A stretch of 64,000 bases of DNA from Flavobacteriales bacterium (GTDB lineage Bacteria > Bacteroidota > Bacteroidia > Flavobacteriales_D > Sanyastnellaceae): the NCBI GenBank assembly GCA_027491075.1, contig JAIXWX010000034.1:62001-126000 (forward strand), in the 5' to 3' direction. Below are positions 43,101 through 45,811 of this stretch, piece after piece. A model generated the notes under the pieces. The model saw nothing but the letters and a program-made list of their open reading frames with translations, had not been told where the DNA came from and ran no database searches. Positions within the stretch are counted from its first letter, which is position 1, and the number at the start of each line of letters is the position of its first letter. The position numbers and the translations under genes were made by a program.

Positions 43101-43688
43101 ATGAGACACAATTTAAGTGAGGTAACAGAGATAATTCGCAATCGAAGGTCTGTTACGCCTGAGAATTTTTCAAATCGGAAAGTACATAGAGAACAAATAG
43201 AGCTTTTATTGAATAATGCCATTTGGGCGCCATCACATGGAATGACGCAGCCTTGGCGTTTCAAGGTGTTCACAGATGGTGGACTGGAAAGATTAGCCGC
43301 TTTTTTGCCTATGTTGTATAAATCTCAAACTACTCCAGAATCGTTTAAACAAGCTAAATTTGAAAAAATAGGAGCAAGACCTCTACTATCTTCGGTTGTA
43401 ATTGCGGTATGCATGGAACGAGATCCTACAAGGAAAATAGAGGAAATAGAGGAAGTCGAAGCTGTTGCTTGTGCAATTCAAAACATGCATCTTACATGCA
43501 CTGCGTATGGATTGGGGGCGTTTTGGTCTACTCCGAAGTTGATTTACTCTCAAGAGATGAATGACTTTTTAGGCTTGAAGCCTGAGGATAAATGCCTCGG
43601 ATTATTCTATGTTGGATATACAGAAATGGAATGGCCCAAAAGCCATCGTAAGCCAGTTGAATACGTCACTGAATGGATAGGAGAATAA
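43101..43688 (+). CDS. Nitroreductase family protein
   Basis: A 195-residue FMN-dependent oxidoreductase. IIRNRRSVTPENFSN and NNAIWAPSHGMTQPWRFKV carry the FMN phosphate- and ring-binding residues of the nitroreductase fold, and AIQNMHLTCTAYGLGAFWST is the family helix-turn segment with the dimer interface. These enzymes reduce nitro groups, quinones or flavins with NAD(P)H; the natural substrate is unknown. The next gene starts 16 bases before its stop. Confidence 0.92.
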   Translation: MRHNLSEVTEIIRNRRSVTPENFSNRKVHREQIELLLNNAIWAPSHGMTQPWRFKVFTDGGLERLAAFLPMLYKSQTTPESFKQAKFEKIGARPLLSSVVIAVCMERDPTRKIEEIEEVEAVACAIQNMHLTCTAYGLGAFWSTPKLIYSQEMNDFLGLKPEDKCLGLFYVGYTEMEWPKSHRKPVEYVTEWIGE

Positions 43689-44479: not shown

Positions 44480-45091
44480 TTACGCTTTCTTGTTTGCTAC
44501 TAAGTTAACAGTAAGACGCATGTTGTTGCTAATTGCTTTGTCACCTAAAGTGCCAAAGAAAGTTTCAGAACCGTATCGAACATCAAACTGTGAGCGATCT
44601 ACGTTCAGGGTTCCATTGATAGTGACATTGCTGTCCGTGCCGCCCACTTTTGCTGGGAAAGAAACATCTTTTGTAACGCCCTTGATGGTGAGTTTCCCAT
44701 TGATGGTATGCGTGTTGCCTGAGGCATCTTTAGTTGCACTCACAGACACTACTTCGAAATTGGCATCTGGAAACTTTGCCGTATTGAAGAAGTCCTCAGA
44801 CTTTAAGTGATTGATTAAGTTTGCATTCATGTCTTTGTCGGAAAGGTCGGTACAAGCGATGCCGTTCATATCTACCTTTACCTTACCTGTTGCGATGTTT
44901 CCGCCTTTTACAGTGACTTGACCACTTGAAACTCGGATGGTTCCGTCGTGTCCGCTTCCAGTGGCTTTTTCACCATGCCAACCAATACTGGAGGCTTTGT
45001 AATCTACATTGAATACACCATCTTTTAATTGGGCGATTGAAGCTGTTGCGCTAAATGCAATAACAGCTAAGGATAAAATGACTTTTTTCAT
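44480..45091 (-). CDS. YceI family protein
   Basis: A 203-residue exported protein (signal peptide to ASIAQ) with the YceI lipocalin-like barrel: VDYKASSIGWHGEKATGSGHDG, DMNANLINHLKSEDFFNTAKFPDANFE in two blocks, and TINGKLTIKGVTKDVSFP. YceI folds bind isoprenoid-like lipids, and members respond to acid or alkaline stress. It lies three bases behind a MarR-family gene and is probably autoregulated with it. Confidence 0.93.
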   Translation of the reverse strand: MKKVILSLAVIAFSATASIAQLKDGVFNVDYKASSIGWHGEKATGSGHDGTIRVSSGQVTVKGGNIATGKVKVDMNGIACTDLSDKDMNANLINHLKSEDFFNTAKFPDANFEVVSVSATKDASGNTHTINGKLTIKGVTKDVSFPAKVGGTDSNVTINGTLNVDRSQFDVRYGSETFFGTLGDKAISNNMRLTVNLVANKKA

Positions 45092-45094
45092 TGT

Positions 45095-45598
45095 TTATGG
45101 ATTTATTGTAATTGATTTATTGAATTGTAATTTGGAGCTTTCTCCTTGGGATTCTCGCATTTTGTCCAATAACGTATTGATCAATTCTGCTTCTTTAATA
45201 CTCAAGCCCTCTAAAGCCTTAGCGGCGTTTTTCATGGGCTCGTCTACCTCAGAGAGTAATTTCAAGCCGTTATTAGTTATCCTCACTTCAACCTGGCGTC
45301 TGTCATTAGAACATACAGAACGCTCTACTAGCTGCTTTTCTTGGAGTTTGTCTACTATTCGAGATGCATTACTGCTTCTGTCGACCATGCGTTCTATCAA
45401 ACAATTCACGGACAAAGGCTGGCCTTTTTGTCCTCTGAGAATTCGTAAGATGTTGAATTGTTGGATCGTGAGGTTATAGGGCTTTAATACATGCTGATGC
45501 GTCAAGCTCAGCCAGCTGGAGGTATAGATAATATTCACTGCTAGCTTATGATACTCGCTGGTAAACTTCGGTTGTTGTATGGCTTGCTCTATTCCCAT
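45095..45598 (-). CDS. MarR-family transcriptional regulator
   Basis: A 167-residue winged-helix repressor. KPYNLTIQQFNILRIL, GQKGQPLSVNCLIERM and SSNASRIVDKLQEKQLVERS supply the helix-turn-helix, and SNDRRQVEVRITNNG the beta wing, of the MarR fold. The start is ATG at 45598; seven extra codons upstream are unlikely. It is followed by the YceI gene after three bases, and a two-copy palindromic operator candidate lies 26-52 bases upstream of its ATG. I infer that it represses itself and yceI until a ligand or oxidant relieves it. Confidence 0.9.
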   Translation of the reverse strand: MGIEQAIQQPKFTSEYHKLAVNIIYTSSWLSLTHQHVLKPYNLTIQQFNILRILRGQKGQPLSVNCLIERMVDRSSNASRIVDKLQEKQLVERSVCSNDRRQVEVRITNNGLKLLSEVDEPMKNAAKALEGLSIKEAELINTLLDKMRESQGESSKLQFNKSITINP

Positions 45599-45623
45599 TT
45601 TAAATGAATCACAGGGCAAATAT

Positions 45624-45650
45624 ATGTAGATACATTTAATGTTGTTACAT
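45624..45650. promoter_or_regulatory. Tandem palindromic operator ATGTAGATACAT / ATGTTGTTACAT
   Basis: Two 12-base near-palindromes, ATGTAGATACAT (45624-45635) and ATGTTGTTACAT (45639-45650), identical at 10 of 12 positions, are separated by TTA and flanked by TAT and ATA. They share the half-site ATGT-N4-ACAT and a 15-base repeat period. The site is upstream of the MarR-YceI operon. Confidence 0.6.
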
Positions 45651-45811
45651 ATAAATTAAAAAAGGTGTTAAAAAATAGGTTTCGGTACCGAGGGCGAAAA
45701 ATGTGGTACAGGTGTGCACATGAATGGCATGAGATTGTAAAACTAAGTCATTGAAACTGAAACCAATTTGTTTGTTGGAGCGTATCAACGTTAAATTAAA
45801 ACTCAAAAGAC

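Follow-up and report, generated by a model that had tools for sequence, protein, structure and literature searches.

A tandem palindrome before a marR–yceI gene pair of Flavobacteriales as a candidate operator of the encoded MarR-type regulator

Described regulators and the marR–yceI locus

Several regulatory systems have been described with which the marR–yceI locus can be compared. MhqR of Staphylococcus aureus is described as a MarR-type repressor of its own operon, and in Bacillus subtilis MhqR, YodB, and CatR are described as jointly controlling azoreductases, nitroreductases, and ring-cleavage dioxygenases (PMC6798810). The MhqR operator is given there as one 9-9 inverted repeat (TATCTCGAA-aTCGAaATA) at -6 to +12, and YodB, CatR, and QsrR (MarR/DUF24) are credited with control of quinone reductases, nitroreductases, and dioxygenases (PMC6798810). 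MgxR (Bxe_B3018) of Burkholderia xenovorans is reported as a regulator that shares its operon with a YceI-family gene; it binds its operator in the ligand-free state and is released by the electrophile methylglyoxal, by which the operon, including the regulator's own gene, is induced (PMC4349456). For the MarR-family protein Rv2887 of Mycobacterium tuberculosis, two dimers are reported to bind a 30-bp duplex from almost opposite sides, each covering 15 bp, and its authors describe each dimer as sitting independently (PMC5526998). Among the open-access publications listed in literature searches, no title or abstract opening describes an operator of the kind reported below in Bacteroidota, which is weak evidence of absence.

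The window, i.e., the whole 64-kb stretch of DNA that was analyzed, encodes on its minus strand a MarR-type regulator (marR, 45095–45598; 167 aa, P0001) and a YceI protein (yceI, 44480–45091; 203 aa, P0002), assigned by the Pfam models MarR (PF01047; 42.9 bits, cut-off 24.6) and YceI (97.8 bits, cut-off 23.7), respectively. The yceI gene begins 3 bp past the marR stop codon, and this two-gene unit is predicted to be co-transcribed. No NCBIfam model reached its cut-off against P0001. The AlphaFold2 model of P0001 has a mean pLDDT of 92.5, and its best 50 listed structural matches (Z 14.4–16.4 over 127–154 residues) are mostly named MarR-family proteins, several of the top ones solved with DNA; P0001, as modeled, has the winged helix–turn–helix fold of the MarR family.

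The locus resembles that of MgxR in that a regulator and a YceI-family gene stand in one operon. Burkholderia xenovorans belongs to another phylum, its other operon partners differ, and the likeness drawn here concerns operon make-up and, as proposed below, induction by an electrophile. With MhqR (Bacillus subtilis, Staphylococcus aureus), the likeness lies in the types of enzyme gene that follow related sites in the family of genome G534, and the difference in the operator, which here comprises two 12-mers of ATGTA type, at a predicted position of -38 to -12, and is thus distinct in sequence, number, and place; YceI and pirin, frequent at the tandem sites, are not named for MhqR in the part of its account considered here (PMC6798810). 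The regulator may work like MhqR. YodB, CatR, and QsrR belong to another family: P0001 matches MarR models, whereas no DUF24/HxlR (YodB-type) model is found among its Pfam matches at E 0.001. Beyond the preliminary description of this DNA, the present analysis adds the promoter box, the breadth of conservation, and further sites in other genomes.

The tandem site and its conservation

Upstream of marR lie two putative operator palindromes of the form ATGT-N4-ACAT, the promoter-proximal ATGTAGATACAT (45624–45635; ATGTATCTACAT on the minus strand) and the promoter-distal ATGTTGTTACAT (45639–45650; ATGTAACAACAT on the minus strand). The minus strand thus reads ATGTAACAACAT, a 3-bp gap, ATGTATCTACAT, and then TATATTTG without a break. 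Two 12-base palindromes sharing 10 of 12 bases are present in the sequence and at the positions given by the preliminary description; the 15 bases it placed between them run from start to start, with an intervening gap of 3 bases (TTA), the framing triplets lie at 45621–45623 (TAT) and 45651–45653 (ATA), and the nearer palindrome begins, as described, 26 positions from the marR ATG (45598–45596, minus strand). By eye, the palindromes are internally imperfect, with five of six and four of six symmetric pairs.

In the window, bare ATGT-N4-ACAT is not enriched (two observed vs. 1.35 expected), which is compatible with chance palindromes in AT-rich intergenic DNA. These two occurrences are the palindromes of the tandem, side by side and the sole sites of the window, and none of 1000 dinucleotide shuffles of the window yielded a pair starting 42 bp or less apart. 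The exact tandem occurs once in the whole 3.0-Mb genome. Searches of this genome with the tandem pattern at up to three mismatches gave about as many matches as the reversed control (16 vs. 14 per strand), as did WTGTANNTACAW (18 vs. 20 per strand); neither search revealed a second site or any sign of a wider regulon in this genome. Nor did these searches show sites before azoreductase, nitroreductase, or ring-cleavage dioxygenase genes there. Because the operator is single in this genome, the local regulon is probably marR–yceI alone. Some 800 bp past yceI, the opposite strand carries a nitroreductase-family gene (window 43101–43688, plus strand), which has no ATGT-N4-ACAT site of its own in the window.

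Conservation was examined in two sets of marR homologues. The first comprises 150 genomes, the window's own included, of which 73 encode a homologue of P0001 at E 1e-10; 70 of 76 listed matches were examined, leaving out those in G053 (two), G062, G100, G105:C196, and G113. Mismatches to the tandem were scored over 16 positions with the same 3-bp gap. Among 52 yceI-linked marR genes (yceI within the retrieved stretch; window included), the tandem is exact in 12, present with up to two mismatches in 41, and with up to four in 47, compared with none, none, and two, respectively, in coding-stretch controls (one per locus; n = 52). No tandem is recognizable at five of the 52, or, at up to four mismatches, before any of the 18 homologues without yceI in this set. 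The second, named set stems from a protein-based search of a wider range (best 80 of 592 matches, six of the 80 repeating the first set). Here the tandem (up to four mismatches) precedes 40 of 44 marR genes immediately followed by yceI (five of the 44 being repeats; controls 0/44), 5 of 14 whose yceI lies at another place in the stretch, and 8 of 22 for which no yceI was found; carriers include Hymenobacter, Pontibacter, Adhaeribacter, Dyadobacter, Arcicella, Emticicia, and Ignavibacteria. At up to three mismatches, 38 of the 44 loci accommodate the 3-bp gap, and 20 the next best of 21 gaps tried, probably owing to shifted registers. No gene family recurs as third operon gene in most loci of the named set (at most 13/44). 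A phylum-wide search for the exact tandem matched 3 of 395 genomes, with one reversed-control match (G449); three of its four places are marR–yceI promoters (the window's and two more), and the fourth, L207, lies before an azoreductase-like gene.

The comparison of orthologous upstream regions that the preliminary description proposed has thus been made and finds the tandem in place, and the candidate autoregulatory operator that it put forward gains support from this conservation, with the same 3-bp gap and beside a promoter box. Conservation with a fixed gap also speaks strongly against chance palindromes, as do reversed patterns, which found nothing in 120 genomes of the G534 family or, with the box pattern, in 150 genomes of the window's relatives, and one match each in two other searches; chance is scarcely credible as an explanation.

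Some homologues have other sequences at this place. Five of seven homologues examined in family f9 (L053, L054, L060, L063, L064) carry a different, TACCATGGTA-like palindrome (by eye) in the same position, a possible switch of operator specificity; at L053 and L060 the next gene resembles a TonB-type receptor (by eye). In family f10, L033 and L041 are followed by a gene that resembles an aldehyde dehydrogenase (by eye), and have TTGTATCAACAA upstream in place of the tandem.

Predicted promoter and leader, and MarR lineage

A predicted -7 promoter box, TATATTTG (45617–45624, minus strand), has as its first base the last base of the proximal palindrome. From the position of the box and the sigma-A consensus of Flavobacterium psychrophilum, TAnnTTTG at -12 to -5 (PMC9723704), transcription is predicted to start (+1) at 45612 on the minus strand, and the operator would span -38 to -12. 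The ATG lies 18 nt past the box, giving a predicted leader of 14 nt. Within window positions 45596–45624, a GTG is located at the predicted +1, out of frame with marR.

We aligned 47 homologous promoters that had been selected for a tandem with up to four mismatches. In 39 of the 47, the last T of the proximal palindrome is also the first base of the TAnnTTTG box, a register in which the operator would overlap the predicted promoter of the regulator's own operon. The TGT and ACAT positions of the proximal palindrome are invariant, and the distal palindrome is less strictly conserved. This asymmetry bears on whether one long inverted repeat, bound by a single dimer or a tetramer, is the unit, instead of two dimer sites: the two 12-mers jointly do form a 16+1+16 inverted repeat (81% complementary), but the stricter conservation of the proximal 12-mer, and loci with a good proximal and a poor distal site (L035, L042, L048), argue for two dimer sites and make a single unit unlikely.

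The start codon lies 4 nt past the place of the box in 33 of the 47 promoters (L065 among them has an imperfect box). With the box at -12 to -5, the start codon would therefore coincide with +1, and many marR mRNAs of the window's order are predicted to be leaderless; in F. psychrophilum, leaderless mRNAs account for just 5.5% (PMC9723704). At six loci (L055–L062 and neighbors), the operator is 4 bp closer, and the start codon again follows 4 nt past the box; five of the six boxes are perfect (by eye). In the named set, the register of the box is the same in 18 of 40 promoters and one base off in 11, with the box elsewhere in four and not found in seven. The operator is often 20–30 nt from the start codon in this set, with distances from 4 to >30 nt across other groups. 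Since the distance to the start codon varies while the operator is kept beside the promoter box, a DNA rather than an RNA element is favored, and the operator appears to go with the promoter, not with the start codon. At L039 and L051 (genus g7), a third palindrome-like copy (TTGTACAGACAT, ATGTACCAACAA) follows the -7 box, ahead of a start codon that is 27–29 nt away.

The same geometry weighs against two further possibilities, activation by the MarR protein instead of repression, and an element acting in the mRNA leader. Activation is compatible with the sequence, but the tandem would extend over the -33 region, and it touches the -7 box; in many relatives, moreover, the whole tandem is upstream of a start codon predicted at +1, and would lie outside the mRNA. 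Both are very unlikely. Repression is the reading suggested by operator position and regulator family.

An association of the operator with yceI adjacency, as opposed to MarR lineage, was not supported on the MarR tree, where four independent pairs on supported branches gave a median sign-test p of 1 (quick tree). The distribution of the operator on this tree matches the MarR lineage, and its association with yceI is not independent of phylogeny. Some MarR genes without yceI retain the operator beside pirin genes (L154 and L136 by Pfam, L189 by eye), which is why we assign the operator to the regulator. Pirin homologues also adjoin MarR homologues in G044:C3, G097:C72, and G124:C14, which hints that this link extends beyond the operator-bearing group. 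The recognition-helix residues S76, N77, S79, and R80 occur in 86 of 87 operator-bearing rows, and were rejected as predictors of the operator, given that 25 of 56 operator-less rows share them. C96 is retained in 80 of the 87 rows with the operator and in 45 of the 56 without it.

Sites in other genomes and the proposed response

Among the window's relatives, a pattern including the box (up to three mismatches) matches 34 of 150 genomes, with no reversed-pattern match. Opposite-strand repeats aside, all but one of the places listed are before this marR; the exception, in G042, is located 7 bp upstream of a pirin gene, where both the box and the 4-nt spacing recur. Without the box, the pattern matches 28 of 150 genomes, with one reversed-control match (G002) and the same single pirin exception. 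Most pirin genes of these relatives are without the site: among the best 30 loci, one has it with one mismatch, one with three, and one with four.

Sites are more numerous in the family of genome G534, where 113 of 120 genomes match, many of them more than once, and no reversed pattern does. We read 91 sites, namely 28 loci and 60 regions among the places listed for this family, and three loci from the phylum-wide exact search. They precede marR (38), separate yceI (18), pirin (11), azoreductase (8), WrbA (7), luciferase-like monooxygenase (4), glyoxalase/dioxygenase-type (2), and nitroreductase (1) genes, with two unassigned (L223, L301). Thus 89 of the 91 fall within eight gene classes, which were named after the fact and by cluster, with profiles run only on representatives; where a site lay between two divergent genes, it was counted with the quinone-type gene. 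On the representatives, azoreductase models stay below their cut-offs and WrbA and monooxygenase models exceed theirs, and the dioxygenase-type class is based on its two sites and a general Glyoxalase/dioxygenase profile. At L289 (site between 1396 and 1671), a nitroreductase gene on one side faces a divergent superoxide dismutase-like gene (by eye) on the other.

As an outside test, all 35 places were examined in 11 genomes of three other genera, selected for more than one match. All 35 precede members of four of the eight classes, namely yceI (17), marR (8), nitroreductase (6), and pirin (4); five representatives were checked by profile, and the nitroreductases include L380, L383, and L386, which lack a blastp label, and L388, with a weak one, counted as such by their alike sequences and because L383 passes the Pfam profile. 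Sites arising by chance would not single out these gene classes, although the related genomes are not independent. The repeated placement of the tandem before genes of quinone and reactive-chemical type in the G534 family is new, and resembles the quinone-stress regulons of Firmicutes.

Several operons with the site in one family would also be expected if another, wider regulator owned the sites and marR were merely one of its targets. The near confinement of the site to this marR in the window's relatives runs counter to this, as does the rank of marR promoters as the largest site class (38/91); since all 120 genomes of the G534 family contain marR homologues, the family offers no negative group. 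We regard ownership by a wider regulator as quite unlikely. Taken as a whole, the evidence is best explained if the two palindromes serve as operator for the MarR-type repressor whose gene follows them (probability about 0.88), and autoregulation by this MarR is the most likely reading of the tandem.

In the mechanism we propose, two MarR dimers would bind next to each other at about -38 to -12, covering the -33 region and reaching over the edge of the -7 box; RNA polymerase would be kept from the promoter, marR–yceI would be off, and an inducer would release the repressor. The 15-bp spacing would allow the two dimers to occupy nearly opposite faces of the DNA, the geometry reported for Rv2887, whose own site is described as GC-rich, read indirectly, and palindromic on one side only (PMC5526998). 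Because the Rv2887 dimers, in a similar geometry, each sit independently, the cooperativity suggested in the preliminary description is not to be assumed (PMC5526998). The inducer is most likely a quinone or similar electrophile, at even odds or slightly better, as in a related family the same site stands before yceI, pirin/quercetinase, azoreductase, WrbA quinone reductase, nitroreductase, dioxygenase-type, and monooxygenase genes; the suggestion is carried over from that family because the window's own genome has no second site.

More broadly, we give an even chance to the view that this MarR, spread across Bacteroidota, is dedicated to sensing quinones or electrophiles, and that it is an MhqR analogue with a tandem operator of its own and YceI as core target; in the window's order, the repressor mRNA would be mostly leaderless, and the operator would directly adjoin both promoter box and start codon. 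YceI proteins are widespread, and we know of no settled role for them. A site shared by yceI with azoreductase, WrbA, nitroreductase, pirin, and dioxygenase-type genes would assign YceI to a chemical-stress response that can be tested.
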